From NCBI GenBank assembly GCA_020444545.1, contig JAHLKT010000002.1, positions 650,870-714,869 of the forward strand: a DNA stretch of 64,000 nt, read 5' to 3'. Positions 1 through 18,770 of the stretch are shown one piece after another. Each line of letters begins with the position of its first letter. Within the stretch, counting starts at the first letter, position 1. The DNA comes from Desulfarculaceae bacterium. GTDB taxonomy: Bacteria > Desulfobacterota > Desulfarculia > Desulfarculales > Desulfarculaceae. The notes under the pieces were generated by a model. It saw nothing but the letters and a program-made list of their open reading frames with translations. It was not told the origin of the DNA and did no database searches. Made by a program: the position numbers and the translations under genes.

Positions 1-896
1 GCCTTGGGGATGGCCGCCACCGGGCCAATGCCCATGTAGCGCGGGTCCACGCCGGCCACTGCGAAGGAGCGGTAGGTGAGCATGGGCTTGAGGCCCAGCT
101 CGGCCGCCTTTTCCTTGCTCATGACCATCACCGCGGCCGCGCCGTCGCTCATCTGGGATGAGTTGCCCGCGGTCACCGTGCCGGTCTTTATGAACGCCGG
201 GCGCAGTTTGGCCAGGGTCTCCATGGTGGTGCCGGCCCGGGGGCCTTCGTCGGTGTCGAAGACCTCCTCGTAGAGCTCGAACTTGCCCTTGGCGGTCTTC
301 TTCTGCTTGGTCACCATCAGGGGCACGATTTCGTCCTTGAAGCGGCCCTCGGCAATGGCCTTGAGAGCCAACTCGTTGGAGCGCACGCCGTACTTGTCCT
401 GCTCTTCGCGGCTGATGTTGAAGTCGTTGGCCACGTTCTCGGCGGTCATGCCCATGCCCTCATAGGCCCAGGGCTTGGCCGCCCCCAACTCCGGGTCCAA
501 CATCATCATGTTGCCGCCCATGGGGATCAGGCTCATGGACTCCACGCCGCCGGCGATCATGATGTCCGCCTGGCCCACCATGACGCGCTCGCAGGCCACG
601 CTGATGGCGTTTAGGCCCGAGGAGCAGAAGCGGTTGAGGGTCATGCCGGGCACCTCGTCGGGCAGGCCCGCCTTTTGGGCGGCCACCCGGCCGATGTTCA
701 GGCCCTGCTCGGCCTCGGGAAAGGTGCAGCCCAGGATCACGTCGTCGATCTGTTTGGGATCCAGGCCCGGGGTGCGCTTGACCACTTCGCCCACCACCGT
801 GCTGGCCATGTACTCGGGCCGGGTTTGGCGCAGGGTGCCCCGAGGGGCGCGCCCCACCGCGGTCCGGCAGGCCGCGACGATCACGGCTTCCTTCAT
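1..896 (-). CDS. fadA: Acetyl-CoA acyltransferase (thiolase), cut by window edge
   Basis: Thiolytic cleavage of 3-ketoacyl-CoA, the last step of beta-oxidation. The start is the ATG whose A is at 896, preceded by GGGAGG. The visible 298 residues contain the thiolase N-terminal domain with the nucleophile in [11 protein letters not shown] (Cys91), GGVESMS and MGMTAENVA. About 95 C-terminal residues, including the second catalytic Cys and the GHP motif, lie outside the window. It is downstream of and co-directional with the fadN-type gene, as in the Bacillus fadN-fadA pair, so a degradative role is more likely than acetoacetyl-CoA synthesis. The family is certain; the exact chain-length preference is not readable. 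Confidence 0.9.
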
Positions 897-936
897 GAGA
901 TACCTCCCACCTTCTTGACTGAGGCGAAAATTATTA

Positions 937-1007
937 GAACAGGAGAGGGGCTCAACAAAATAGCGCCCGCACGACGTGTTTGTATTAAAATCGCCCCTCT
1001 CCTGTTC
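937..1007. repeat. Perfect 15-bp inverted repeat between fadN and thiolase genes
   Basis: The left arm GAACAGGAGAGGGGC is at 937-951 and its exact reverse complement at 993-1007, enclosing a 41-nt loop. The structure fills most of the 135-nt gap between the two beta-oxidation genes. No T-run follows it on the minus strand, so it is more likely an RNA processing or stability element, or a site that sets the ratio of the two products, than a classical terminator. Confidence 0.7.
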
Positions 1008-1031
1008 ATTTCTTCCACTTGCCGCTCTTTC

Positions 1032-3470
1032 TCAGTTGCGCAGCGGCTTGCCGGTCTTGAGCATGTGGGCCATGCGCGCTTGGGTCTGGGGCATTCCGCA
1101 AAGCTTGAGGAAGGCCTCGCGCTCCAGGTCCAGGATGTACTGCTCGCTGACCTCGGTGTCGGGCAGCACGTTGCCGCCGGTGAGCACCCGGGCCACCTCG
1201 GTGGCCACGTTTATGTCGTGGTCGGTCACGAAACCGGCCTTGTGCATGTTGTACAGGGCGTACTTGAACACGCCCATGCTGTCGCGGCCCAGGACGCGGA
1301 TGTTCTCGATGGGGCGCGGTGCGGTGTAGCCGGCCAGGTTCAGGGCCAGCACGTTGTCCTTGGCCTTCTTGATGCGGTAGTCGGCGTTGACCACCACCTT
1401 GTCGCTCTCGCGGAAGATGCCCATCTTGATCGCCTCGGGGCCGCTGGTGGCCACCTTGGCCATGGCGATGGTCTCAAAGGCGCGGGCCACGAAGGGCAGC
1501 AGGTAAACCTGCTTGGGGTAGAGGCCGCCCTTGGCGATCTTGAACACGCGCTCGTGGGTGTTCCTGAGCAACAGCTCCTTGGTGCCGCCGCCGGCGGGGA
1601 TCACGCCCACGCCCACCTCCACCAGGCCGGTGTAGGTCTCGGCCGCGGCCACCACCCGGTCGGAGGCCAGGCAGATCTCGCAGCCGCCGCCCAGGGCCAT
1701 CTGGTGCGGCGCGGAGACCACCGGCTTGGACAGGTACTTCAGGCGCATGAAGCTGTCCTGGAATTTCTTGATCATCCAGTCCAGCTCGTCCCACTCCTCT
1801 TCCTGAGCGGTGAACAGCACCAGCATGAGGTTGGCGCCCACCGAGAAGTTGGTCCCGTGGTTGGCCACCACCAGGCCTTCCCAGCCGTCGTTTTCAATCA
1901 GGTCGCAGGCCTTGTCCACCATGGTGATGATGTCCTGGCCCAGGGAGTTCATCTTGGTGTGGAACTCCAGGCACAAGACCCCGTCGCCCAGGTCGATGAG
2001 GCTGGCGCCCTTGTTCTCGGCCACGGTCTTGTTCTGCGCCTTGAGGGAAGGCAGCAGGATGATCTCGGGCGACATCTCCACCAGCTTGTAGTCCTTGGAG
2101 GGGATGTCGTAGTAGTAGAGCTGTCCGTTTTCGGTCTTGTAGAAGGACTCCTTGCCGTCGGCCAGCATCTCATCCACCCAGGCGGGGATGGCGAAGCCGC
2201 CGGCCTTCATGGCCTCCACCGACTTGGCCACGCCCAGGGCGTCCCAGGCCTCGAAGGGGCCCATCTTCCAGTTGAAGCCCCACTTCATGGCGTTGTCGAT
2301 GTTCACCACGTCGTCGGAGATCTCGGGGATGCGGGCCGCCGCGTAGACCAGGCCGGCGCTCATGTGCTTGAAGGTGAACTCGCCGGCCTTGTCCTTGGCG
2401 TAGTAGATGGCCTTGAGCTTGGCCTTGCCGCCGGGCTGCTGGTTGGCCGCCTCCAGGGAGGCGAACTTGGCCTTCTGGGTGGGGCGGTACTCCATGGTGG
2501 CCCGGTCCAGGACCATGACCTGCTTTTTGCCGTTCTCGTCCTTGACCTTTTTATAGAAGCCGCCCCGGGTCTTGTTGCCCAGCCAGCCTTTTTCCAACAT
2601 GCCCTTGAACCAGGCCGGGGGCACGAAACGGTCGCGCTGCTCGTCGTCGGGCGCGCCATCGTACACGTTGTCGGCCACGTGGCCCAGGGTGTCCAGGCCC
2701 ACCAGGTCGGCCAGGCGGTAGGAGGCCATCTTGGGGCGGCCCAGCACCGTGCCGGTCAGCGCGTCGGCTTCCTCGAAGGTCAGCTCCATCTCGTCGATGA
2801 GCTGGTTCAGGTAGCTCATGCCGAACACGCCGATGCGGTTGGCGATAAAGTTGGGGGTGTCCTTGGCGAACACCACGCCCTTGCCCAGCACCTTCTCGGC
2901 GAAATCGGCCATGCCGTCGATGACGCCCTGGTCGGTCTTGGGGCCGGGGATGATCTCGAAGAGCTTCATGTAGCGGGGCGGGTTGAAGAAGTGAGTGCCC
3001 AGGAAGCGCTTCTGGAAGTCCTCGCTCAGGTGCTCGCTCATGGCGGCCACCGAGATGCCCGAGGTGTTGGTGGTCACCACCGCGCTGGGGGAAACGACCT
3101 TCTCGAGGCGAGACAGGAGGTCCTTCTTGATGTCCAACAGCTCGACCACCACCTCGATGATCCAGTCGCAGTCGGCCAGAAGCTCCAGGTCGTCTTCCAG
3201 GTTGCCGGTGGTGATCAGCGCGGCGTTGTCCGGCACGTAGAAGGCGGCCGGCTTGGCCTTGAGCGCGCCCTGGAGGCCGGAATCGGCAAAGAAGTTGCGG
3301 AACTGCTTGGAGTCCTCGCTAACTTTCTTCTTGGCCAGGGCGTCGGGCATCTTGGGGGGGACGATGTCCAACAGCACCGTGGGCAGGCCGACGTTGGCCA
3401 TGTGGGCGGCAATGGTGGCTCCCATCACCCCTGCGCCGATGACGCCCACTTTTTCGATCTTCAAGGACAT
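1032..3470 (-). CDS. fadN: FadN-type 3-hydroxyacyl-CoA dehydrogenase / enoyl-CoA hydratase
   Basis: Two-step beta-oxidation enzyme of 812 residues. The dehydrogenase module comes first: GxGxMG NAD site at residues 12-17, catalytic His in THFFNPP, then the C-terminal dehydrogenase domain. The crotonase module is C-terminal, with the oxyanion/Glu motifs GGGCEI and VEVGVGVIPAGGG. This order is that of Bacillus FadN and is the reverse of Escherichia coli FadB. The ATG at 3470 has AGGAGG eight bases upstream; an in-frame codon 24 bases earlier would overrun that site, so it was not used. Two FadR-like palindromes lie upstream and the thiolase gene downstream. It probably acts on CoA esters of long or medium fatty acids; the substrate range cannot be read. 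Confidence 0.93.
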   Translation of the reverse strand: MSLKIEKVGVIGAGVMGATIAAHMANVGLPTVLLDIVPPKMPDALAKKKVSEDSKQFRNFFADSGLQGALKAKPAAFYVPDNAALITTGNLEDDLELLADCDWIIEVVVELLDIKKDLLSRLEKVVSPSAVVTTNTSGISVAAMSEHLSEDFQKRFLGTHFFNPPRYMKLFEIIPGPKTDQGVIDGMADFAEKVLGKGVVFAKDTPNFIANRIGVFGMSYLNQLIDEMELTFEEADALTGTVLGRPKMASYRLADLVGLDTLGHVADNVYDGAPDDEQRDRFVPPAWFKGMLEKGWLGNKTRGGFYKKVKDENGKKQVMVLDRATMEYRPTQKAKFASLEAANQQPGGKAKLKAIYYAKDKAGEFTFKHMSAGLVYAAARIPEISDDVVNIDNAMKWGFNWKMGPFEAWDALGVAKSVEAMKAGGFAIPAWVDEMLADGKESFYKTENGQLYYYDIPSKDYKLVEMSPEIILLPSLKAQNKTVAENKGASLIDLGDGVLCLEFHTKMNSLGQDIITMVDKACDLIENDGWEGLVVANHGTNFSVGANLMLVLFTAQEEEWDELDWMIKKFQDSFMRLKYLSKPVVSAPHQMALGGGCEICLASDRVVAAAETYTGLVEVGVGVIPAGGGTKELLLRNTHERVFKIAKGGLYPKQVYLLPFVARAFETIAMAKVATSGPEAIKMGIFRESDKVVVNADYRIKKAKDNVLALNLAGYTAPRPIENIRVLGRDSMGVFKYALYNMHKAGFVTDHDINVATEVARVLTGGNVLPDTEVSEQYILDLEREAFLKLCGMPQTQARMAHMLKTGKPLRN

Positions 3471-6165: not shown

Positions 6166-6495
6166 TTGGCCCCCAACCAACTTACCGTCATCGCGCCGGG
6201 CACCATCGTGCGGGGAGACCTGTTCAGCCAGGACCTGTTGGTGGTCGAAGGCGGGGTGCAGGGTAACGTGGTGGCCGAGCGGGTGATCATCAAGGGCGGC
6301 GGCTGGGTGCAGGGCAATCTGCGCTGCGCCTCGCTGTCCATAGAGCTGGGGGGCATCGTGGACGGCGAGGTCACCGTGGAGGACGCGGCCCTTTTGCCGC
6401 GCCCGGTCAAGGCCGAGCAAGGGGAACTGGGCCAGCGGGACCAGAAGGCCCTGCCCAACGGCGCCGAGGAGCCCGCGCCCGGAGACGGAACCTGA
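6166..6495 (+). CDS. Bactofilin (polymer-forming cytoskeletal protein)
   Basis: 109 residues, the usual size of a short bactofilin. The central part (about residues 5-75) is a run of short beta-helix turns with repeated G-x-V/I patterns (TIVRGDLFSQDLLVVEGGVQG, then VQGNL and VDGEVTV), flanked by short disordered ends. Bactofilins form nucleotide-free filaments at the inner membrane that position cell-wall enzymes. Here the partner genes upstream are a YkuD transpeptidase and a membrane-anchored protein. The start is TTG with GGAG seven bases upstream; the stop overlaps the cupin ATG. Confidence 0.88.
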   Translation: MAPNQLTVIAPGTIVRGDLFSQDLLVVEGGVQGNVVAERVIIKGGGWVQGNLRCASLSIELGGIVDGEVTVEDAALLPRPVKAEQGELGQRDQKALPNGAEEPAPGDGT

Positions 6496-6854
6496 TGCTG
6501 GTCAAGCGGGCCGACGCGCTGCCGGTGTTCACGGCCACGGACGGCTGCTCCCTGGCCGAGGTCATCCACCCCAACAACGACGCCACCAGCCCGGGGGTGA
6601 GCCTGTCCCGGGCCAGCCTGCCGCCCAAGGGGGTCACCAGCCCCCATCGCCTGGATTTCGTGGAGATCTATTACGTGCTGCGGGGACGGGGGGTCATGCA
6701 CCTGGACGGCGAGTCCGCCGAGATCGGCCCGGAGAGCTGCGTGTACGTGCCTCCGGGAACGGTGCAATGGGTGGCCAACCCCGGCCCCGGGGAATTGGTG
6801 TTTCTGTGCGTGTGCCAGCCGGCCTGGAGCGCCGAGGGCGACCACCCGGCCTGA
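6495..6854 (+). CDS. Small cupin-2 domain protein
   Basis: A single double-stranded beta-helix of 119 residues. Cupin motif 1 is visible as SPHRLDFVEIYYVLRGRG with a trailing MHLDGE, and motif 2 as VYVPPGTVQWVANPG. The His/Glu pair of motif 1 is present (H, then E of FVEIYY). Motif 2 has Gln in place of the usual His, so metal binding may be weak or absent. Its ATG overlaps the bactofilin stop (TGATG), so it is translationally coupled. Substrate unknown; cupins of this size include sugar-binding and regulatory proteins as well as enzymes. Confidence 0.82.
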   Translation: MLVKRADALPVFTATDGCSLAEVIHPNNDATSPGVSLSRASLPPKGVTSPHRLDFVEIYYVLRGRGVMHLDGESAEIGPESCVYVPPGTVQWVANPGPGELVFLCVCQPAWSAEGDHPA

Positions 6855-6861
6855 GCCCGCG

Positions 6862-6879
6862 CCGGGCCGCCCGGCCCGG
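6862..6879 (+). terminator. GC-rich hairpin after cupin, possible terminator
   Basis: Arms CCGGGCC (6862-6868) and GGCCCGG (6873-6879) with a 4-base loop, eight bases after the cupin stop. It is followed only by TTATCAACGATTTAAT, not a proper T-run, so termination may be partial and the flavodoxin gene could be part of the same transcript. Confidence 0.35.
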
Positions 6880-6908
6880 TTATCAACGATTTAATCAGGA
6901 GACAGACG

Positions 6909-7391
6909 ATGGCCAAAGTCCTGATCGCTTATTTTTCCCATGGAGGCAACACCCGCAAGATGGCCGAGGCCCTGGCCGAGAGCATCAAAGCGGGCGGCTG
7001 CGAAGTGTCGCTCAAGAAGCTCGGCGAGGCGACGGTGGACGACCTGCGCGCGGCCGACGGGGTGCTCCTGGGCTCTCCCTGCTACTTCGGCTGCATGGCC
7101 GCGGAGATGAAAAAATTCATCGACGAGTCCATCGCCCTGTTCGGCAAGGGCGAACTGGTGGGCAAGCCGGCGGGGGCCTTTGCCAGCACCGGCGGCATCG
7201 GGGGCGGCGGTGAGCTGACCCTCATGTCCATGATCCAGGGCCTCTTGATCCACGGCATGGTGGTGCAGGGCTCGCGCAAGGGCGGCCACTTCGGCCCCCT
7301 GGCCATCGGCGAGCCGGACGAGCGGGTGCTGGGCGAGTGCGCCACCTACGGGGCCCAGTTCGCGGCCCTGTGCGCGCGCCTGGCCGGGTAG
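6909..7391 (+). CDS. Flavodoxin-like FMN protein (paralogue 1)
   Basis: 160 residues with a flavodoxin-fold phosphate-binding loop right after the first strand (AYFSHGGNTRKMAEAL) and the WrbA/NAD(P)H-quinone reductase-like segments GSPCYFGCMAAEMKKFID and FASTGGIGGGGE. A one-domain FMN protein that carries electrons or reduces small quinone-like or aromatic compounds is likely. AGGAG is found upstream of the ATG. A close paralogue lies at 18783-19304; more than half of the aligned residues are identical, including most of the FMN-site segments. The amidohydrolase follows after four bases. Confidence 0.85.
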   Translation: MAKVLIAYFSHGGNTRKMAEALAESIKAGGCEVSLKKLGEATVDDLRAADGVLLGSPCYFGCMAAEMKKFIDESIALFGKGELVGKPAGAFASTGGIGGGGELTLMSMIQGLLIHGMVVQGSRKGGHFGPLAIGEPDERVLGECATYGAQFAALCARLAG

Positions 7392-7395
7392 GGCG

Positions 7396-8496
7396 TTGAG
7401 CCCCGACCAGGCCCCGGTCTGCCTGCTCCCGCAGGGACTGGCCGGTGCCGCTCCGCATGATGGCCCTCCCGCCGTATTGCTGAAGTCCGGCCGGATCGCG
7501 GCCCTGGGTGGCGAGGCCCTGGCCGCCGGGGCTCCCCGCAGGGAGATGCCCGGCCTGTGGCTCTCGGCCGCGCCCATCGACGCCCACGTGCACTTGCAGA
7601 TGCGCTCCGGCTTGCAGGCGGCCTTGGACGCCTGCAACTGGGCCGGGCTGGCCGCGGTGCGCGACCTGGGCCACCGCGCCGCGCAGCAAACGCCCCGCCG
7701 AAACGATCAAGCTCCCTTGGTGGTGGCGGCCGGGGTGGGGCTGGGAGCGGTAGGCGAGGCGGCCTATTGGCTGGCCGAGCCCGTGGCCGGAGCCGAGGGC
7801 TTTGCCCGCGCGGTGGATGAGCGCGCGGCCCAGGGCTGCGGGGTCATCAAGCTATTCGCCACAGGTCTGCTGGACATCGAAAACGTGGGTCAGGTGTGCC
7901 ATCCCCAGGCCCTGAGTGCCGAGGAGGTGCGGGCGGCGGTGGAGCATGCTCATGCCGCCGGGCTAAAGGTGTCGGTGCACGCCAACGGCGAGGCGGCGGT
8001 CAGGCAGGCGATAGAGCAGGGGGCGGACTGCATCGAGCACGGCTATTTTCTGGGCCGCGATACCCTGGCCCGCATGGCCGAGCTGGGGGTGGAGTGGTCG
8101 CCCACCTTGGCGCCCATCGAGGGCCACGCCGTTGATCCGGCCGGGCGCAACACCCCGGCCCAGCGGGCGGCCTGGAGCGAGATCGGGGCCCTGCAAAAAG
8201 AGCAGATGCGCCAAGCCGTGGAGCTGGGAGTGCGCCTGGTCCTGGGCAGCGACGCGGGCTCCTACGGCGTGCCCCACGCGGAGGGCGCATTTTTGGAGAT
8301 GCGCGCCTGGTTGGAGGCCGGGCTGGCCCCGGAGTTGGTGTATGATGCCTCCACCCGCCGGGCGGCAAAGGCCCTGGGCCTGGCCGGAGAGCTGGGGGGC
8401 ATCTTCCCCGGGGCCCGCGCTTGGCTTTTGGGCACGCGGCAAGACCCGCGCGGCGATCCCTTGCAGCTGGCCCGCCCCCTCTGGCGGAGTTTTTAG
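7396..8496 (+). CDS. Amidohydrolase-superfamily metal-dependent hydrolase
   Basis: 366 residues. Metal ligands of the superfamily are in order: HxH in PIDAHVHLQ, a Lys in GVIKLFATG, His in SVHANGEA, His in IEHGYF and Asp in LGSDAGSYG. This is the pattern of the imidazolonepropionase/prolidase-like branch with a binuclear metal centre, and no signal peptide is visible, so it is probably cytoplasmic. The N-terminal beta-sandwich is short. The TTG start lies four bases after the flavodoxin stop. The substrate is not known. The stop overlaps the stop of the next, convergent gene by four bases. Confidence 0.82.
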   Translation: MSPDQAPVCLLPQGLAGAAPHDGPPAVLLKSGRIAALGGEALAAGAPRREMPGLWLSAAPIDAHVHLQMRSGLQAALDACNWAGLAAVRDLGHRAAQQTPRRNDQAPLVVAAGVGLGAVGEAAYWLAEPVAGAEGFARAVDERAAQGCGVIKLFATGLLDIENVGQVCHPQALSAEEVRAAVEHAHAAGLKVSVHANGEAAVRQAIEQGADCIEHGYFLGRDTLARMAELGVEWSPTLAPIEGHAVDPAGRNTPAQRAAWSEIGALQKEQMRQAVELGVRLVLGSDAGSYGVPHAEGAFLEMRAWLEAGLAPELVYDASTRRAAKALGLAGELGGIFPGARAWLLGTRQDPRGDPLQLARPLWRSF

Positions 8497-9092
8497 CCCA
8501 TCAGGGCGCGCAAACGGCCGGGGTAGTAGAAGACGTATTCGCGGGCCAGGGATGTGTAGCGTTTGACGGCGTAGTCCTTGAGCAGGGCGAAGAACTCCTG
8601 CAAGTTGCTCACCGGCGCGACCATGCGTTCGAATTGGCGCGGGTCGGCCGCGTCCTGGTTGGTGGGCGGGATGAAGCGGCCCTCGCCGCCCCGCCAGCGG
8701 AAGCCGAGCCGGTCGGAGAGCTGGCCAACTTCCTGATACACCCGGCGGATCAAGTCGGTGCGCAGGATGTCCGAGGGAGCGTTGAGCAGGGCCTCCAATA
8801 GGCAGGCCAGATAGCAGACCAGCTCCTGGGCCTCGGTGTCGTCGCGGTGGCGCAGAAAGCCCAAGGCCGTGTCCTGGGTGCCGCCCTCCAGGGCGAAATG
8901 AGGGGGCATTTGGCCCGATGGGTCCTGGCCGCCCTCCAGGCATTGCTCGCGGTACTCTTCGTACAGGGCCGCCGAGCGTACGTGCACCAGAAGCACCCGC
9001 CCAGTGTGCCAGGGCCCCCAGCGCAGGCGCATGGGCTGGTCGGTGATAACATAATCGCGCCCGTCGCCGGGAAAGGTAATGACTTGATCCAA
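8493..9092 (-). CDS. Conserved-looking cytoplasmic protein of unknown function
   Basis: Not recognised. From the TTG at 9092, which has AGGGG seven bases upstream, it encodes 199 residues with no signal or membrane segment. It is fairly rich in acidic residues and aromatic amino acids (RLRWGPWHTGRVLLV, KRYTSLAREYVFYYPGRL). Codon use matches the neighbours, and the frame stays open far beyond the start, into the transglycosylase gene. Start 9092 would make it overlap the divergent transglycosylase start at 9084 by nine bases. An internal ATG (MRLRWGPW) is the alternative and would free space for a promoter. Confidence 0.6.
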   Translation of the reverse strand: MDQVITFPGDGRDYVITDQPMRLRWGPWHTGRVLLVHVRSAALYEEYREQCLEGGQDPSGQMPPHFALEGGTQDTALGFLRHRDDTEAQELVCYLACLLEALLNAPSDILRTDLIRRVYQEVGQLSDRLGFRWRGGEGRFIPPTNQDAADPRQFERMVAPVSNLQEFFALLKDYAVKRYTSLAREYVFYYPGRLRALMG

Positions 9093-10004
9093 CGCACCGC
9101 CCCTAGTGAAAGCATCTCGAATGCCGGTAGGCCAAAAACTCAATTTAGCAGATGGGCCTGGCCCGGAAAAGCCTTGCTTGCGCTTTGCCTGCTCCTGGCC
9201 GCGCTTCCCGCCTGGGCCGGCAACCAGGTCCTGGCCCCGCTCAAGCCGGAGCTGGAATCCATGGGCTATACCTCGGCCCAGGCCGATGCCCTGTTGAAGG
9301 CCAAGGGGGTGCGCTTCGAGGCCAGGCTCATGGCCGCCTTGCTGGCTCCCAAGGAGACCAGCCTCAATTACGCCCAGTTCCTGGGTAAGCAGCCGGTGGC
9401 CGCGGCCCGCCGGTTCATGAAAAAGCACGCCAAGGACCTGGCCCAGGCTGAGAAAGAGAGCGGGGTTCCCGGCTCGGTGGTGGTGGCCATCCTCACGGTG
9501 GAAAGCCGTTTGGGGCGCTACGTGGGGCGCTGGTCAGCCTTCAACGTGCTGGCCTCCCAGGCGGTGCTAGACACCCCCGAGGCCCAGCGGCTCTTGGCCA
9601 AGCGCTGGCCCAAGAAAAAGAGGGCCCAGCTGAAGACCGAGAAGACCCAGGCGCGTTTCGCCAAGCGGGCGGCCTGGGCCCGCCGCGAGCTGGGCTCGCT
9701 GATCAAGCTGGCCAAGAAGGAAGGCCGCTCGCCGCTGAGCTACAAGGGCTCGGTGGCCGGAGCCATGGGCATGGCCCAGTTCATGCCCAGCTCTTTGCTG
9801 GCTTGGGGCAAGGACGGCAACCGCGACGGCGAGATGGACCTGACCCATCCAACGGACGCCATTTTCTCGGTGGCCAACTATTTGCGCAAGCACGGCTGGA
9901 AGCCCGGCCTGAACTACAAGGGCCGCTTCAAGGTGATCCTCACCTACAACAACTCCAAGCCCTACGCCCGGACCGTCTTGGCCCTGGCCGAGAGGCTGCG
10001 GTGA
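9084..10004 (+). CDS. MltB-type lytic murein transglycosylase
   Basis: Periplasmic enzyme that cleaves the MurNAc-GlcNAc bond to give 1,6-anhydro ends. About 306 residues: a signal peptide with the core LLALCLLLAALPAWA, then an SLT_2-type domain. The catalytic Glu140 is in LTVESRLGRYVG, and further signatures are FNVLASQAVLDTP and GAMGMAQFMPSS. The C-terminus (FKVILTYNNSKPYARTVLALAERL) is typical of the family. The TTG start has AAAGG eight bases upstream. Its stop overlaps the start of the addB-like gene (GTGA), which ties a cell-wall enzyme to a DNA-repair operon. Confidence 0.9.
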   Translation: MIQRTAPSESISNAGRPKTQFSRWAWPGKALLALCLLLAALPAWAGNQVLAPLKPELESMGYTSAQADALLKAKGVRFEARLMAALLAPKETSLNYAQFLGKQPVAAARRFMKKHAKDLAQAEKESGVPGSVVVAILTVESRLGRYVGRWSAFNVLASQAVLDTPEAQRLLAKRWPKKKRAQLKTEKTQARFAKRAAWARRELGSLIKLAKKEGRSPLSYKGSVAGAMGMAQFMPSSLLAWGKDGNRDGEMDLTHPTDAIFSVANYLRKHGWKPGLNYKGRFKVILTYNNSKPYARTVLALAERLR

Positions 10005-13000
10005 TTGAGCGGGCCGAAGCCCTGGTCTGGCCCAGCGGCCAGGCCCGGGAACAGGCCCTTAGCCGGGCCGCCGCCTCGGCCCCCGGCGGACTGCTCTTGG
10101 GCGGAGAGCATCACTACACCTTCCAGGGGACCAACCCCCTGCTGCCCTCGCTATGGGCCCAAACCCCGGCCGCCAAGGGCGGGGCGCGCCCCCTGGGCGA
10201 GCTGGCCGGGCCCATTCTGGTGCAGGGCATCCTGGGCGAGCTTTCGCCAGCCCAAGCCTCCCTGGCCGGCCTGGCCCGGGGCCGCCGCTTTCCCCATCGT
10301 CTGTGGCGCCTGCTGGTGGGCCTCAAGGCCGCCGGTCTGGCGCCCCAAGATTTGCGCGATCTGCACGGCCCCGGCGCTTCACGGCGCGAGGCCCTGGCCC
10401 TGGTGTTGGAGACCTACCTGGCCGCCCTGAACTCGCGCGGCCTGCTGGACGAGGCCGACTTTCTGGCCCAGGTGGAGGCACACCTAAAAGCGGGCGGCAC
10501 GCTTTCCTTGCTGGATGCCTGGAGCGGTCTGACGGTCAAACAGGCCCTGTGGCTGCGCCCGGCCGAGGTGCGTCTGCTAAAGGCCTTGGCCCTGCGTTTG
10601 CCGGTGCGGGTGAAATTCGCCATGACCCACCCCCGCGATGATCAAGGCGGGGTGTTCCGGCTGATGAAAAAAACCGCCAAGGCCCTGGAGCGCGAGGACA
10701 GCAACATCGAGGTGCTTTGGAGCGACCTGGAAGGGGAGGGCGGCCCCCTTGCCGAGATGGCTCTGGCCGAGTGGGGCGAATCCTCGCCTGCTCCCTCTGA
10801 CCACGCGGCCCTGGAGCTGGTGCGCGCGCCAGGGGCCTATGCCGAGGTGGAGGCCCTGGTGGCCCGGGCCCGCGCCCTGGCCGACAGCGGGGTGCCCTGC
10901 TCGGATATCCTGCTGGTCTTCCCGGACCTGAGCCTCTACGGCCAGATGGCCGAGGATGTGGCGGGCCGCCTGGGCCTGCCGCTCTCCTTCCGGCGGCCCG
11001 AGCCCCTGGCCGGATCGCCTCTGGCCCAGGCCTTTCTGGAGCTCTTGGCCTTGCCCCAGCGGGGCTATCCCCGGGTGGAACTGGCCCGAGTGTGGGACTC
11101 GCCTTACCTTGGCCCGGCCCTGTCTCGGCTGCTCAAGGTGCCCCGGCCCCAAGGCGCGGCCAGGCTGCTCAGTGCGGCGGGCTACGTGGACGCCCACGAG
11201 ACTCCGGCGCGGGAGTGGCTGCAAGGCGCGGACGACCAAGTGCACCACAGCCTCAAGGACGGCCTGCGAGAGTTGGCCGATGCTTGCGGGGCTCTCCGCG
11301 CCTGGCTGGCTCCCCTGGACCAGCCCCAGACCCTGGAGGAATACGCAGCTATCCTGGACAAGATGCTTTCGCTGCTGCAACCGGCCGCCAACCTTGAAGC
11401 CCCGGTCACAGACAGCGATGCGGCCGTGGCCCTGGCTCGTGATCTCAACGCCGCCGCCGGGTTGGAGCGGGCCCTGACAGGGCTGCAACGGGCCGCCGGA
11501 CAGGTAGGCGGCGCGGAGGCGCTCAGTCCAGGCCGCCTGCTGGCCCTGCTGCGCCAGGCCCTGGAGCAGCAGGATGCGGGCCGGGGAGCTGGGGCGCGCG
11601 GCGGGGTGCGGGTATTGCGCCTGGAGGACGCCCATGGCCTGGAACCAGCCTGGCTCTTGGCCGGCGGCCTGAACCAGGAGGAGTTCCCGTCCCGGCCCTC
11701 GGACCTGCGCCTGCTGGACCACGATGAGCGCATCAAACTGGGAGGCAAGGCCCACTTGCCGGTGTGGCGCACCGAGGACGAGGAGTTTAGCGGTCAAGAG
11801 ATGCGCCTGCTCTTGCTCTTGGGCTCGGCCCGTCAGGGAGCCGTGCTGGCCAGCGCGGCGGCGGATTTAGGCGGCGCGCCCCGCTCGCCCAGCTTGCTGC
11901 TGAGCCGCCTGGCCAAGGCCCTGGGCCGCGAGGCCGAGCTGGAGGCCCCTTCCGGCGGGGTCTACGGCCAAACGCCCGCCTTGAAAGACTGCCCGGATGA
12001 GCGCTCCCTGTGGGCCGCCCTGGCCCGCGAGGCCTTGCGGCCTTCTAATGCGCCACCGCCCAGCGCGGCATTGGCCCAGGCCCTGCTCTTCGAGATTGCC
12101 AGCCGAGACGAGCTCGCCGAGCGCTGGCGCTCCCTGGCCGCCCGCGCAACGGTTGAGGAGCGGCGGGCCCGCTTGGAGGCCATGGGAGAGGCGGGCCGCC
12201 GCGCCCAGGCCGGGCCCTTTGAGGGTCTCATCCCGGCCGGTCCGGCCCAAGAGCTGCTGCAAGCCATACTGGCCGACCTCGCCCGCCGCCGCCTTTCGCC
12301 CACCAGCCTAGAGTCCTACGCCGCCTGCCCCATGGCCTGGTTCCTGGGCCGCATCCTGGGCCTGGCCGAAGAGGACGAGCCCGCCTGGGATCTGGCCGGA
12401 CGCATCGAGGGCGACTGGGTGCACGCCACTCTGGCCCGCTTTTTCGCTCCCGAGGAATTCGATCCCTCCTGGGACGCCGATGCCTTGGCCGCTCGGCTCG
12501 ATGCCTGCCTGCAAGAGGCCGGCGAAAAGCTGGCCGCCAAAGGCCGGGCCGGGCACGGATTGGTGAGGGAGGCCCGCCGCGAGGTCTTGCGCACCGCGCT
12601 CAACCAGGTGGTGACCGAAGAGATGGACGCCCTGGGCGAGCTGCGCCCCTTTGCAGTGGAAAAGGACTTCGGCCGCGAGGACGAGGGGCTGAGCGTGGCG
12701 GTGGAGCAGGGCGAGCCGCTGCGGCTGCGCGGCCGCCTGGACCGCCTGGACCGGAGCGAGGGCGAGCTGCGGGTGGTGGACTACAAACACTCCCTAAGCG
12801 AGCGGGCGGCCAAGGACCCGGTGCGCCCCAAGGAGCTGGCCGTCAGCGCCTTCCAGGTGCCGGTGTATTTGGCCGCGGCGCGGCGCTTTTGGGGCTCGCC
12901 GGACGACGCGCTCAGCGCCCGCCTGGTGCCCACCCGCCGCCGCGATGGCGGGCCGGGCCTGCTCTCCTTGAAGCCCGACGATCCCTTGCTCAGCGAAGAC

Positions 13001-13192
13001 CCCGAGGTGCGCCGCCGCCTGGACCTGGAGGGCCAGCCCAACCTGTTCAACGCGGTGGCCGCGCTTTGGGGCCGCCTGAGCGGCGGCGACTTCCTGGCCA
13101 CCCCGGAGAACGCGACTTGCGATTACTGCGCCCTGGGCGGGGTGTGCCGCTCCCGCCTGGACCCGGCCGCCGCCCTGGAGGACACACCGTGA
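10001..13192 (+). CDS. addB: AddB-like helicase/nuclease subunit
   Basis: Large subunit of a double-strand-break processing complex, 1063 residues. The N-terminal half looks helicase-like but shows no Walker A (GGLLLGGEHH instead of GxxGxGKT), so ATP binding by this subunit is doubtful, as in RexB-type proteins. The C-terminal PD-(D/E)XK nuclease has the Asp of LRGRLDRLD and VVDYKHS. The AddB iron-sulfur signature is complete: Cys776 in AACPMAWF, then Cys1040, Cys1043 and Cys1049 (C-x2-C-x5-C). The GTG start overlaps the transglycosylase stop; the stop overlaps the addA start. Confidence 0.88.
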   Translation: MIERAEALVWPSGQAREQALSRAAASAPGGLLLGGEHHYTFQGTNPLLPSLWAQTPAAKGGARPLGELAGPILVQGILGELSPAQASLAGLARGRRFPHRLWRLLVGLKAAGLAPQDLRDLHGPGASRREALALVLETYLAALNSRGLLDEADFLAQVEAHLKAGGTLSLLDAWSGLTVKQALWLRPAEVRLLKALALRLPVRVKFAMTHPRDDQGGVFRLMKKTAKALEREDSNIEVLWSDLEGEGGPLAEMALAEWGESSPAPSDHAALELVRAPGAYAEVEALVARARALADSGVPCSDILLVFPDLSLYGQMAEDVAGRLGLPLSFRRPEPLAGSPLAQAFLELLALPQRGYPRVELARVWDSPYLGPALSRLLKVPRPQGAARLLSAAGYVDAHETPAREWLQGADDQVHHSLKDGLRELADACGALRAWLAPLDQPQTLEEYAAILDKMLSLLQPAANLEAPVTDSDAAVALARDLNAAAGLERALTGLQRAAGQVGGAEALSPGRLLALLRQALEQQDAGRGAGARGGVRVLRLEDAHGLEPAWLLAGGLNQEEFPSRPSDLRLLDHDERIKLGGKAHLPVWRTEDEEFSGQEMRLLLLLGSARQGAVLASAAADLGGAPRSPSLLLSRLAKALGREAELEAPSGGVYGQTPALKDCPDERSLWAALAREALRPSNAPPPSAALAQALLFEIASRDELAERWRSLAARATVEERRARLEAMGEAGRRAQAGPFEGLIPAGPAQELLQAILADLARRRLSPTSLESYAACPMAWFLGRILGLAEEDEPAWDLAGRIEGDWVHATLARFFAPEEFDPSWDADALAARLDACLQEAGEKLAAKGRAGHGLVREARREVLRTALNQVVTEEMDALGELRPFAVEKDFGREDEGLSVAVEQGEPLRLRGRLDRLDRSEGELRVVDYKHSLSERAAKDPVRPKELAVSAFQVPVYLAAARRFWGSPDDALSARLVPTRRRDGGPGLLSLKPDDPLLSEDPEVRRRLDLEGQPNLFNAVAALWGRLSGGDFLATPENATCDYCALGGVCRSRLDPAAALEDTP

Positions 13193-16100
13193 GCGGGCCC
13201 GCCCAGCGCCTGTGCCTGGTGGCCGGGGCCGGAGCCGGCAAGACCACCCGCCTGGTGGCCCACTATCTATCGCTGCTCTCGGGTGGGGAGGGCCGGGAGC
13301 CGCTTAGGCCTTCGCAGATCGTGGCCATCACCTTCACCGAAAAGGCGGCGGCCGAAATGCGCGCCCGCATAAGCCAGGAGGTGCCGCCCGCCGTGGCCGC
13401 CGAGCTGGCCTGGGCGCCCATCAACACCATCCACGGCTTCGCGGCCGGCCTGCTGCGAGACTACGGCATGGCCCTGGGCGTGGACCCGGAGTTCGCGGTG
13501 CTGGACGCGGACGAGCACGCCCGCCTTCTGGCCGAGACGGTAGACGATCTCCTGCGCCAGGGCCTGGCCAGGCAAGACCCACTGTTGGCCGGGCTCCTGG
13601 CCCACTACCCTCTGAACGGCAAAAGCGGCCTGGCCGGGATGTTGACCTGGCTGCACGCGCGCCTGGCCACCCTGGGACTCAGCCCCGAGCAGGCGAGCCA
13701 GGCCACTGAGCAGGCGCATCGGCAAGACCTGGAAGCTGGCCGCGAGCTGCTTCCGGCCATGGACCGGCTCATGCCGAAATTGCGTGAGCTGTGCGATCAG
13801 GGCAAGGTCAACAAGGGCAAGGCTTACGGCCAAAAGATATTCGCTCTGCTCGCGGAATGGGACACCCTGCGCGCGGGCCTGGCCATGGACCCGGTCGATC
13901 CCCAAGCCATGGCGAGAATGCGGGCGCTTTGCGCGGGCAACTGGTACGCGGCCAAGGCGGTTCGCCAGGAGTTGCTGGCCGCCTTGGATCAGCTGCAAGC
14001 TCTGGCCGCCATACCGGATGCCCAAGCCTTGGCCCAGGACCTGCTGGCCCTGTGCGCGCGGCTCAATCAGCGCCTGGACCAGGAATGCTCGCGTCGCTCG
14101 GTGTTGGGCTTTGACGATCTCCTGCTCAAGGCGCGCGACCTGCTGGGAGGTTTCCCCGGCGTGCTGGCCCAGGCGCGGCATCGCTGGCCCGCCCTGCTGG
14201 TGGACGAGTATCAGGACGTGAACCCAGTGCAGGGCGAGCTGGTGGAACTGCTGGCCGGAATGGGCCACGACCCCGCGCCGGATGCGGCCGCGCCGAGCCT
14301 GTTGGCAGTGGGCGACCGCAAGCAGTCCATCTACGCCTTCCGGGGGGCCGAGGTGGCGGTGCTGGCCTCGCTAATGGAGCGCTTGGAGCAAGGCGCGGGC
14401 GAGGTGGAGGCGATCGCGGCCAACTGGCGCTCCCACCCCGCTTTGGTGGCCTTGTTCAACCGCCTGTTCCAGGCGGTTCTCCAGCCAGGCGAGAACGCGG
14501 CCCACGCACCCGAGGCCTATGTGGAGTTCACCGAACGCGACGCGCAAAAGCCGGGCGGCCGCCAACCTGGCGACTCGGCGGATACGGTGATGGACATCAT
14601 CGATTGCGCGGGGCTGGCCGGGGAGGACAAACTGGGCGCCGCGGCCTGGCGCGCCCTGGAGGCGCGGGCCCTGGCAGCCTATCTGCGCGGGGTTCTCGAC
14701 CAGGGCGCCTTCCAACCGGGCCAGGTGGCGGTGCTGCTCAGACGGCTCACTTCGGTGGGCATCTACGAAGAAGCCCTGCGCCGGGCAGGCGTGGATTACT
14801 ACACTGTGCGGGGCCGGGGCTTCTACGCCTGTCACGAGGTGAGCGACGTGTCCATGGCCTTACGCGCCCTGCTGGACCCGCAGGACGAGATAGGCCTGAC
14901 CGCCTGGCTGCGCTCACCCCTGGTGGGCCTGAGCGACGAGAGCCTCCTGGCCCTGGCCTATGCCTCCGGTCTGGAGCGTCCTGGTTTGGCTTCTTGTTTT
15001 CTGGGCTTCGAGCCTCTGCCCGATTGGTGCGGGTCGGAGCAACAATCGCGATTGGACCTGGCCCGGAGCGCCTGGCGCGAGCTGGGCCCTCTGGCCCGGA
15101 GGCTGCATCCGGCCGAGCTGATCACCCGTCTGCTGGAAATGAGCGACCTTCTGCCCGTGCTCATGGGCACCAGCGGGGGCGAGCAAAAAGCGGCCAATTT
15201 GCGCAAGCTCATCGAAACCGCGCGGCGGCCCAGCGGTGTGCTGGCCGGAGGGGTGGAGGCCTTCAGCCGGGGCCTGGCCGCCTTGGTGGCTTCCCCGCCG
15301 GACGACCCGCAAGCGCCGCTGTTGGGCGAGGACGCCCAGGTGGTGCGCATCATGAGCGTGCATCAGGCCAAGGGCCTGGAGTTCCCCATGGTGGTGCTGC
15401 CGGATCTGGCCGGACGCGGCGGCTCGCCGGACCCGCTGCCCGACCTGGGCCCAGGCGGCGAGCTGGCTGCCACTCCCCTGGACCCGGCCAGCGGCACCCG
15501 CCGCCAACCGCCGCTGTATGAACGCCTGCGCCTGCGGGCCAAGGCCCGGGCCGAGGCCGAGGAGGCGCGCACCTTTTACGTGGCCTGCACCCGGGCCGAG
15601 CAACGCCTGGTCCTCCTGCTCAGCGGCAACGGCGCGCGCAACAAGGGTTGGGCCCATTGGGCCGAAGAGCACCTCATCAACGATCCCGCCGCGCGGGTGA
15701 TCGAGGCCGCGTCCTTGGGCCGCGAGACCGTGGCCGAGCCTCGCGCCCTGGCCGATGCCTGGCCCGAGGGTCTGCCGCCCGAGCCCGGCCCGGCCGAGAG
15801 CGAGGCCCGCGCGCTTCTGGCCCGGATTAACCGCGCGCCCGCCAGGCTCGGCCTGGTGCGCGAATCGGTGAGCGGCCTGGAGAACTGGCTGGCTTGCCCC
15901 CGGCTCTACGTGCTCACCCAGCGCCTGGGCCTGGACACCGCCCTGCTGCCCGGCAAGGGCGAAGGCGTAAAGGAGAGCATCGCCGACGCGGTGGCCCTGG
16001 GCAGCCTGGTGCACCGCCTGCTGGAGACCACGGACCTGAGCCAGGGCAGGGCTGGGCTGGCCAGCGCCCTGGAGGCCTTGGAGCATGAGCCCGATATTGT

Positions 16101-16614
16101 TGATCGTGCCTTGGCTCTGGCGGGCCGTTTGTGGGATAGCGATCTGCCCGGCCTGCTGAACGACGCCGAGGCCATCGAACGGGAGCTGCCCTTCCGCTTG
16201 CACCTGCCGGGCCAGGGCGGCGAGCCTGCCGTGGAGATCATCGGGGAGATGGACCTGGCCGCGCACCTGCCCGAGGGCTGGTTGGTGGCTGACTACAAGG
16301 TCAGCGCCAAGGCCGACCCAACACCCTATCGCGACCAGATGGCCTTGTACTGCCTGGCCCTGTACAAGGGGCAGGGCGGCGAGGGCTCGGTGCCCCGTGC
16401 CTGCCTGGTGTTTCTCTCGCCCGCTGGCGGACGGCTCTCCTGGCTGGAGTTCACCGCCGACGACCTGGCCGCCGTGGAAGAGCGGGTGAGCTCGGCAGCC
16501 ATCGGCATTGCGGCCCTGGGGCCTAGGCCTGATCCCGCGACTCTGCCGCGCGGCGATGACTGCGGACATTGCCCGGCATCGGGTCTGTGCGGAATCAGGG
16601 AGGGCGCTGCATGA
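13189..16614 (+). CDS. addA: AddA-like UvrD-family helicase/nuclease
   Basis: Superfamily 1 helicase with a C-terminal nuclease, 1141 residues. Walker A AGAGAGKTT is at about 12-20, motif Ia AITFTEKAAAEM, motif II LVDEYQDVNPVQ, motif III VGDRKQSIYAFRGA, motif V MSVHQAKGLEFP and motif VI YVACTRAEQRL. The nuclease has GSLVHRLLE, GEMDL, VADYKVS and DQMALYCLALY. Unlike textbook AddA it also has Cys903 (LACPRLY) and a terminal Cys1125-x2-Cys1128-x5-Cys1134, the same spacing as the AddB iron-sulfur clamp. GTG start and ATGA-type stop overlaps make addB-addA-recD2 a tight operon. Confidence 0.9.
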   Translation: MSGPAQRLCLVAGAGAGKTTRLVAHYLSLLSGGEGREPLRPSQIVAITFTEKAAAEMRARISQEVPPAVAAELAWAPINTIHGFAAGLLRDYGMALGVDPEFAVLDADEHARLLAETVDDLLRQGLARQDPLLAGLLAHYPLNGKSGLAGMLTWLHARLATLGLSPEQASQATEQAHRQDLEAGRELLPAMDRLMPKLRELCDQGKVNKGKAYGQKIFALLAEWDTLRAGLAMDPVDPQAMARMRALCAGNWYAAKAVRQELLAALDQLQALAAIPDAQALAQDLLALCARLNQRLDQECSRRSVLGFDDLLLKARDLLGGFPGVLAQARHRWPALLVDEYQDVNPVQGELVELLAGMGHDPAPDAAAPSLLAVGDRKQSIYAFRGAEVAVLASLMERLEQGAGEVEAIAANWRSHPALVALFNRLFQAVLQPGENAAHAPEAYVEFTERDAQKPGGRQPGDSADTVMDIIDCAGLAGEDKLGAAAWRALEARALAAYLRGVLDQGAFQPGQVAVLLRRLTSVGIYEEALRRAGVDYYTVRGRGFYACHEVSDVSMALRALLDPQDEIGLTAWLRSPLVGLSDESLLALAYASGLERPGLASCFLGFEPLPDWCGSEQQSRLDLARSAWRELGPLARRLHPAELITRLLEMSDLLPVLMGTSGGEQKAANLRKLIETARRPSGVLAGGVEAFSRGLAALVASPPDDPQAPLLGEDAQVVRIMSVHQAKGLEFPMVVLPDLAGRGGSPDPLPDLGPGGELAATPLDPASGTRRQPPLYERLRLRAKARAEAEEARTFYVACTRAEQRLVLLLSGNGARNKGWAHWAEEHLINDPAARVIEAASLGRETVAEPRALADAWPEGLPPEPGPAESEARALLARINRAPARLGLVRESVSGLENWLACPRLYVLTQRLGLDTALLPGKGEGVKESIADAVALGSLVHRLLETTDLSQGRAGLASALEALEHEPDIVDRALALAGRLWDSDLPGLLNDAEAIERELPFRLHLPGQGGEPAVEIIGEMDLAAHLPEGWLVADYKVSAKADPTPYRDQMALYCLALYKGQGGEGSVPRACLVFLSPAGGRLSWLEFTADDLAAVEERVSSAAIGIAALGPRPDPATLPRGDDCGHCPASGLCGIREGAA

Positions 16615-18770
16615 AAGCCCCCCGCGAGGTCACCTTTCAGGGCCGGGTGAAGCGCATTACCTTTTCCAATCCGGAAAACGGCTACACCGTGGCCAAGGTG
16701 GAGGGCGAGGGCCGCCTGGGCCTCACCACCCTGGTGGGACGCATGCCCGGGATAACCGAGGGCCAGGACGTGGAGGTCAAGGGCAAGGAGTCGACCCACC
16801 CCAAGTTCGGGCCTCAGATAGAGGTGGAGGAGTGCAAGATCAAGCTGCCCTCCGACGCCGAAGGGGTGGAGCGCTACCTAGCCTCGGGCCTGATCAAGGG
16901 CGTGGGGCCGGTGTTGGCCAAGGCCATCGTGAAAACCCTGGGCCCCCTGGCCGTGGACATCATCCTGGAGAGCCCCAAGCGCCTGGCCGAGGTGCCCGGG
17001 GTGGGGCCCAAGCGGGCCACGGTCATCGCCGAGGCGGTGGTGGCCCACGGCGCCTTGCGCGACTTGATGGTTTTCCTGCAAGCCCACGGGGTGGCCGCCG
17101 GCACGGCGCTGCGCATCTTCCGGCGTTACGGGGCCGGGGCTCTGGACGTGGTGCAAACTAAACCCCACCGTCTGGCCGCCGACATCCGGGGCATCGGTTT
17201 CGCCACGGCTGACGCCATTGCGGCCAAGCTGGGCATTGCCCACGATCACCCCGAGCGCTTGCAGGCCGGTTTGCTGTGGATTCTGAACCAGGCCCGCGAC
17301 GAGGGGCATGTTTACTTGCCCTATGAGGAGCTGATCGAGCGTACCGCTGAACAGCTCCGTGTTTCGCGCGAGCTTCTGGGCCCGGCCTTTGCCCGCTTGC
17401 ACGCGGAGCAGGAGATCGTGGCCGAGGACCTGCCCGAGGGCGGCCGCGCGGTGTACCTTCGGGGCCTGCACCTCATGGAAGGCCTGGCCGCCAGGGAGCT
17501 GGCCCGCATCGCCGGGCAGCCGGGCCTGCTCACCCCGGAGCGCGCGGCCAAAGCGGTAGAGTGGGCCGGAGGGCAGCTCTCGGTGCAGCCCTCTCTGCGC
17601 CAGGCCAAGGCATTGGAGGGCTTGCTCACCGCCGGGCTTTCGGTGCTCACCGGCGGGCCGGGCACCGGCAAGACCACCCTGGTGCGCGCGGTTATAAAAG
17701 TGGCCAAACGCATGGGTCTGTACGTGGCCTTGGCCGCGCCCACGGGCCGGGCGGCCAAGCGCCTGAGCCAGGCCAGCGGCATGGAAGCCTCCACCCTGCA
17801 CCGTCTCCTGGAGTTCAGCCCCAAGGAGAACCGCTTTTTGCGCGGCCCGGAAAAGCCCCTGGAGCACGGCCTCATCGTGGTGGACGAGTCCTCCATGATC
17901 GATATCTGGCTGGGCGCCCATCTGGCCGCCGCCGTGGGGCCCACCAGCCGCCTGCTCTTGGTGGGCGACGCGGACCAGCTCCCGCCCGTGGGGCCGGGCC
18001 TGTTCTTTCGACAGATCATGGACTCGGGCGCGGCCCACGTGGCCCGGCTCACCGAGATCTTCCGCCAGGACGAGAGCGGACTTATCGTGGCCAACGCCCA
18101 CCGCATCCTGCACGGCCAGATGCCCCGCCTGCCTTCGCGGGACGGGGAGGGCGACTTCTTCTTCATCGAGCAGAAAGACCCGGTCCGGGCGGCGGAGATC
18201 ATCCGCGAGCTGGTGGCCGCGCGGCTGCCCGCCCGCTTTGGCTTGGACCCGCACCAGGATATCCAGGTGCTGGCCCCCATGCACAAGGGCAACCTGGGTT
18301 GCTCGCACCTCAACGCCCTGCTGCGCGCCGCCCTGAACCCTGCGGCCCAGGGCAAGCCCGGCCTGGCCGTGGGCGACCGGGTCATGCAGGTGCGCAACAA
18401 CTACGACCTTGAAGTTTTCAACGGGGACATGGGCTTGGTGAAGAGCGAGGATGACGAGGGCCTCAACGTGGGAATGGACCGGGGCCTGGTGAGCTACGCC
18501 CCGGCCGACCTGGAGGACCTGACCCTGGCCTACGCGGTGACGGTGCACAAGAGTCAGGGCAGCGAGTACCCCTGCGTGGTCATCGCCCTGGCCAATGAGC
18601 ACTACATCCTGCTCAACCGGCCCCTGCTTTATACCGCCGTTACAAGAGGCAAAGGCTTGGTGGTCATCGTGGGGCAGCGCTCGGCTCTGCGGCGGGCGGT
18701 GGAGCACGACCAGCCCACCCAGCGCTACGCCGCCCTGGACGCCAAGATCAGGCGATGCCTCGCCGCCTGA
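16611..18770 (+). CDS. recD2: RecD2-type ATP-dependent DNA helicase
   Basis: 5'-3' superfamily 1 helicase of 719 residues. The N-terminal OB-like segment (FQGRVKRITFSNPENGYTVAKV) and helix-hairpin-helix repeats (ASGLIKGVGPVLAKAI and LAEVPGVGPKRA) mark the long RecD2 form rather than RecD of RecBCD. Walker A GGPGTGKTTL contains Lys354; motif II is VVDESSMIDI, motif III LVGDADQLPPVGPG, and motifs V and VI are VHKSQGSEYP and YTAVTRGK. Its ATG overlaps the addA stop. RecD2 usually acts without RecBC; here its coupling to addBA suggests joint use in end processing, which is inference. Confidence 0.93.
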   Translation: MKAPREVTFQGRVKRITFSNPENGYTVAKVEGEGRLGLTTLVGRMPGITEGQDVEVKGKESTHPKFGPQIEVEECKIKLPSDAEGVERYLASGLIKGVGPVLAKAIVKTLGPLAVDIILESPKRLAEVPGVGPKRATVIAEAVVAHGALRDLMVFLQAHGVAAGTALRIFRRYGAGALDVVQTKPHRLAADIRGIGFATADAIAAKLGIAHDHPERLQAGLLWILNQARDEGHVYLPYEELIERTAEQLRVSRELLGPAFARLHAEQEIVAEDLPEGGRAVYLRGLHLMEGLAARELARIAGQPGLLTPERAAKAVEWAGGQLSVQPSLRQAKALEGLLTAGLSVLTGGPGTGKTTLVRAVIKVAKRMGLYVALAAPTGRAAKRLSQASGMEASTLHRLLEFSPKENRFLRGPEKPLEHGLIVVDESSMIDIWLGAHLAAAVGPTSRLLLVGDADQLPPVGPGLFFRQIMDSGAAHVARLTEIFRQDESGLIVANAHRILHGQMPRLPSRDGEGDFFFIEQKDPVRAAEIIRELVAARLPARFGLDPHQDIQVLAPMHKGNLGCSHLNALLRAALNPAAQGKPGLAVGDRVMQVRNNYDLEVFNGDMGLVKSEDDEGLNVGMDRGLVSYAPADLEDLTLAYAVTVHKSQGSEYPCVVIALANEHYILLNRPLLYTAVTRGKGLVVIVGQRSALRRAVEHDQPTQRYAALDAKIRRCLAA

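Follow-up and report, generated by a model that had tools for sequence, protein, structure and literature searches.

Predicted iron-staple nuclease in the AddA subunit of a Desulfarculaceae bacterium and in many other AddA proteins

The nuclease of the AddA protein encoded in the window (the whole 64,000-nucleotide stretch of Desulfarculaceae bacterium DNA that was analysed) is very probably of the [4Fe-4S] iron-staple form, and comparison of sequences predicts two clusters per AddAB complex, one in each nuclease. Two clusters, as the original prediction had proposed, is the best reading of the cysteine set that AddB itself carries, of the cysteine-on-cysteine alignment of the two nuclease domains, of the all-or-none conservation of the set in AddA, and of a domain model whose fold matches AdnA, which together predict metal binding by AddA. 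The same form of AddA is widespread, being present in the window's family, in several other families of its phylum and in many Bacillota, and it is not an odd design of this one complex, as had been supposed. AddAB is described with its cluster in AddB, and nothing in the solved structures of AddA, RecB and AdnB matches the cysteine tail. The four-cysteine set of AddA is real and widespread, and it corrects the textbook generalisation that places such a predicted staple in AddB only. We found no description of a cluster in AddA in the literature searched, although some key papers lay outside the search and an earlier passing mention is possible. Yeeles 2009 is said to be the original paper on the AddB cluster, and Jia 2019 is reportedly the paper on the AdnAB structure. 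The nearest described group is that of the UvrD-Cas4-like fusions, which combine an SF1A helicase with a Cas4-type nuclease as AddA does here, but which stand alone or beside restriction and defence genes rather than in an overlapping addB-addA pair (PMC5704561).

The addA gene begins with a GTG codon that overlaps the stop codon of addB (Table 1). Pfam domains UvrD-helicase (PF00580, 2.8e-48), UvrD_C and PDDEXK_1 (3.7e-19) were found in the protein, and the helicase motifs GAGAGKT, TFTEKAA, DEYQD, GDRKQSIYAFRGA, NWRS and YVACTRA are intact. The four cysteines that had been said to bracket the nuclease were confirmed at their positions, each of them encoded by TGC, and the PDDEXK_1 match begins just ahead of the first and ends at the last. 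The four cysteines claimed for AddB are likewise present. One cysteine ahead of the nuclease core and three behind it is also the arrangement in the iron-staple nucleases Dna2, Bad and Cas4, which differ from the SF1A protein described here in having an SF1B helicase or none and in belonging to other complexes (PMC7430649, PMC3466216).

Table 1. Positions of the AddAB and RecD2 features in the window
Feature	Position	Strand	Description
addB	10001..13192	+	Start GTG 10001; partner subunit with C-terminal iron-staple nuclease, PDDEXK_1 764-1050 (3.4e-37)
AddB Cys776, 1040, 1043, 1049	12326..13147	+	Canonical AddB iron-staple set
addA	13189..16614	+	SF1A (UvrD-like) helicase with C-terminal RecB-family nuclease, predicted iron-staple form; 1141 aa
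AddA nuclease domain with four-cysteine set	15865..16590	+	Residues 893-1134, Pfam PDDEXK_1
Cys903 (LACPRLY)	15895-15897	+	Predicted first cluster ligand; in 46/46 iron-staple AddA, 0/69 others
AddA active site His942, Glu999, Asp1022, Asp1035, Lys1037	16012..16299	+	Intact; each residue in 46/46 iron-staple AddA
Cys1125	16561-16563	+	Predicted second cluster ligand
Cys1128	16570-16572	+	Predicted third cluster ligand
Cys1134	16588-16590	+	Predicted fourth cluster ligand
recD2	16611..18770	+	SF1B helicase; ATG overlaps addA stop; TIGR01448 762 bits (cut-off 500)

AddA homologues were collected from 30 relatives, from phylum samples of about 200 and 300 genomes, from 300 Bacillota and from a collection of named genomes. 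The aligned set comprised 115 complete AddA-type proteins from many phyla, and since the loci were picked by similarity, the counts are not prevalences. All four cysteines are present in 46 of these proteins and none in 69, and not a single protein carries a partial set. In the drawn phylum sample, the match extends to the last cysteine in 13 of 297 genomes. A lack of the cysteines in all near homologues, which the original prediction had named as contrary evidence, is clearly not what is seen. An initial alignment of 17 sequences, drawn from the family and phylum of the window, left only these four of the 16 cysteines of AddA invariant. Among 23 diverse nuclease domains, no residue is invariant other than the four cysteines and G59, H63, E120, D143, D156, K158 and Y168. 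In the proteins without the cysteines, the C-terminal stretch of about 50 residues that bears three of them is missing as well, and replacement at position 903 coincides with the loss of this tail. Long C-termini accompany the set: at least 95 residues (median 105) follow the catalytic Lys in the cysteine-bearing proteins, compared with at most 93 (median 55) in the others. The Bacillus-type relatives have no Cys at position 903, unlike the protein described here.

The original prediction had also relied on the equal C-x2-C-x5-C spacing in AddA and AddB. The equality holds in this sequence, but it does not serve as evidence, since the spacing varies within the genus, most members of which have C-x4-C-x5-C. 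Over the whole of the AddA set the triad ranges over C-x2..6-C-x3..8-C, and C-x2-C-x5-C is not conserved; the evidence lies in the position and the invariance of the four cysteines. Five Bacillota loci (L180, L181, L183, L184 and L186) have a short triad, C-x2-C-x3-C, followed by a brief extra tail, and retain all four cysteines. We also observed a distant UvrD-nuclease with the four-cysteine set (C-x2-C-x7-C) on a long branch in a Myxococcota MAG (L118, 5683-9138), with no recognised AddB alongside. Two genomes of the phylum, G146 and G302 (loci L031/L142 and L144), encode two AddA-type proteins each: one of the iron-staple form, accompanied by its AddB, and another at a different place, whose match stops before the cysteine tail.

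We then compared the nuclease domain with known structures using profiles. When the AddA and AddB nuclease profiles were aligned by hhalign (99.8%, E 8e-28), cysteine fell on cysteine at both ends, so that the four AddA cysteines coincide with the four ligand cysteines of AddB. The AddB nuclease of B. subtilis (PDB 3U44 chain B), also of the RecB family, has the same four-cysteine arrangement at equivalent positions, but it belongs to the other subunit, and the AddA described here is much closer to B. subtilis AddA. Indeed, the best PDB sequence match of the AddA profile is B. subtilis AddA (E 6.9e-17), while AddB is matched at E 0.0063. The signature is for this reason not AddB-type, as it had been called; the domain belongs to the AddA line, being a RecB-family nuclease that carries the general iron-staple set and was not taken over from AddB. 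In the same search of the PDB, none of the alignments with B. subtilis AddA (ending at position 213 of 264), AdnB (229 or earlier) and RecB (198) reaches the cysteine tail, while the AdnA, Cas4 and ACE1 chains are aligned to the end of the profile with the tail included. A phmmer search of the PDB with the AddA nuclease domain alone gave nothing useful. The statement that Bacillus-type AddA has no such cysteines was borne out, because the solved B. subtilis AddA ends directly after the last core strand, before the segment with three of them. The AlphaFold2 model of whole AddA has a pLDDT of 82.8; the domain reaches 90.9 with a pTM of 0.89, and the cysteine tail 74-88. By Foldseek, the top matches of whole AddA are B. 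subtilis AddA chains (4cej_A, 1.8e-47), and that of the nuclease domain is AdnA (6ppr_A), which aligns through the cysteine tail over 263 columns, compared with 223 columns for B. subtilis AddA.

Based on these observations, two doubts about the sequence pattern itself can be considered together. Because the sequence is GC-rich, AddA has 16 cysteines in all and its relatives differ in spacing, the four cysteines could be a chance or non-functional pattern. However, in 46 proteins, some with as little as about 20% identity in this domain, they are as invariant as the catalytic H, E, D, D and K, and their distribution is strictly all-or-none, which indicates that the pattern is not due to chance; the comparative data already refute this explanation, and we leave it practically no probability. 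The other doubt is whether the protein is AddA at all, or whether a subunit of AdnAB type or a stand-alone UvrD-Cas4-like fusion adjoins addB by coincidence. Such fusions with Cas4-family nucleases do exist (PMC5704561), and the curated addA models are matched far under their cut-offs (TIGR02785, addA_Gpos, 193.8 vs 707.65 bits; TIGR02784, addA_alphas, 190.1 vs 860.75 bits). These scores exclude only those two equivalogs and not AddA in the broader sense, because the names of the models refer to Gram-positive and alphaproteobacterial groups. Against this doubt, addB and addA overlap here and AddB is adjacent in nearly all relatives, B. subtilis AddA (PDB 3U44, 4CEJ) is the best match in both fold and sequence and shares the domain order, the catalytic residues and the adjacent addB, and this is the only AddA-type protein of the genome, where the remaining matches are much weaker UvrD-type helicases. 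Mycobacterial AdnAB (6PPJ, 6PPR, 6PPU, 7SJR) is a two-nuclease heterodimer, as the complex is here, but its staple sits in AdnA, the AddB-like side, while in AdnB, the counterpart of AddA, nothing matches the cysteine tail. Membership of AdnAB was rejected, since it needs a UvrD-like motor in both subunits; AdnA has one (UvrD/REP in PDB naming), whereas neither a P-loop nor a UvrD domain was found in AddB by motif inspection and Pfam, PDDEXK_1 being its only Pfam match. AddB, with an inactive motor and a C-terminal nuclease, is encoded beside addA, as is characteristic of AddAB. It is extremely unlikely, in our estimation, that the protein is anything other than a genuine AddA with a UvrD-like motor and a RecB-family nuclease.

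If AddA does bind a cluster, Cys903 in the first helix pair and Cys1125, Cys1128 and Cys1134 in the C-terminal extension would jointly ligate one [4Fe-4S] cluster, which would pin both ends of the nuclease domain together. Together with the canonical AddB cluster, this would make the enzyme a two-cluster heterodimer. In AddB and Dna2, the cluster links the first cysteine with the C-terminal triad and acts as a staple that supports the structural integrity of the nuclease and DNA binding (PMC7311471, PMC7430649, PMC3466216). By analogy we infer that AddA binds metal in the form of a [4Fe-4S] cluster, which, as reported for AddB, would serve mainly a structural purpose, in folding and stability of the nuclease and in its grip on DNA. 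The four cysteines might instead hold zinc or another single metal as a purely structural staple. The solved structure of a related RecE-like nuclease of E. rectale (3L0A) has Zn held by the same arrangement of four cysteines, although the Zn may be artefactual according to the authors who discuss it (PMC3466216), and either metal could tolerate the differences in spacing, even the C-x2-C-x3-C of some Bacillota. The equivalent cysteine set holds Fe-S in AddB, Cas4 and Dna2 (PMC3466216, PMC4176176, PMC7311471), and we regard zinc as unlikely. A further possibility, in line with the redox-sensitive design suggested by the original prediction, is that the AddA cluster senses redox state or oxidative stress, switching the AddA nuclease or coupling to the AddB cluster. 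With its two predicted clusters, a single DNA-bound machine would have the geometry that such a mechanism needs, and redox roles for Fe-S repair enzymes have been discussed (PMC3466216, PMC7311471). However, the role of the AddB cluster as described is structural. In addition, among the named genomes the presence of the set does not follow lifestyle: Thermoflavimicrobium, an aerobe, carries it, while the anaerobes Clostridium chromiireducens and Faecalibacterium do not, and a tie of the set to anaerobic life is not supported by these examples. Structural stapling is likelier than redox sensing, to which we give very little credence.

To trace how the set is distributed, trees were built from the helicase part only, leaving out the cysteine trait. 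In an LG+G4 tree without outgroup, 45 of the 46 cysteine-bearing proteins fall in one region with cysteine-less rows nested among them, requiring five changes, and the Bacillus type is placed elsewhere than in the mixture-model tree. With an outgroup and a mixture model, Bacillus-type AddA lies inside the cysteine-bearing Bacillota (SH-aLRT 95, from a quick search and on a long branch). A more careful tree with bootstraps gave 5-6 changes and never a single clade of cysteine-bearing rows, its deep forks being unresolved. A single clade of cysteine-bearing AddA was rejected by the AU test (p-AU 0.0017), and keeping the cysteine-bearing rows and four apparent local losers apart from the other cysteine-less types was marginally rejected (p 0.044). 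The trees imply several all-or-none changes of the four-cysteine set, as reconstructed from sequence. Local losses look clear in two places, where the cysteine-less family f4 is sister to the cysteine-bearing L020 and where the cysteine-less L036 adjoins the cysteine-bearing L032. As for the depth and direction of change, an old staple that was lost several times is favoured, because AddB, AdnA and Cas4 carry the arrangement in corresponding places. AddA of the iron-staple form probably came first, and the cysteine-less AddA proteins, possibly including the Bacillus type, probably arose through loss of the C-terminal segment. It is conceivable, though we lean slightly against it, that the ancestral AddAB had two clusters and that the one-cluster Bacillus enzyme is secondarily reduced, as one of several independent losses of the module.

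The AddB partners show a different behaviour. The upstream AddB also has the triad in 43 loci with a cysteine-bearing AddA, and the triad is kept in 49 of the 58 cysteine-less AddA loci with an upstream ORF; the remaining upstream ORFs include alphaproteobacterial types without the triad and ORFs that are probably not AddB. In genome G044, for example, the four-cysteine set is absent from AddA and present in AddB. Most AddB partners of cysteine-less AddA thus retain the triad, and it is mainly the set in AddA that changes. If many Bacillota and relatives of the window bacterium hold a cluster in AddA, the standard model enzyme would not be representative, and AddAB enzymes with and without this second cluster would provide a natural experiment on Fe-S function in break-processing nucleases, as the AddA module has appeared or disappeared whole several times while the AddB cluster mostly persists. 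In one genome (G090, L197), the iron-staple addB (240-3359) and addA (6412-10017) are separated by about 3 kb, compared with the usual overlap, and the triad is present in this AddB as well.

In the window, addB, addA and recD2 are preceded by a lytic transglycosylase gene, and the four genes form a run from 8847 to 18770 in which starts and stops overlap (GTGA at 10001, GTGA at 13189 and ATGA at 16611). The order addB-addA-recD2 is retained in most of the window's family (L006-L012, L014-L016 and L019), and recD2 was not seen beside addA in the other phylum members or in the Bacillota whose flanks were examined. AddAB together with a co-produced 5'-3' RecD2 helicase might work like RecBCD.
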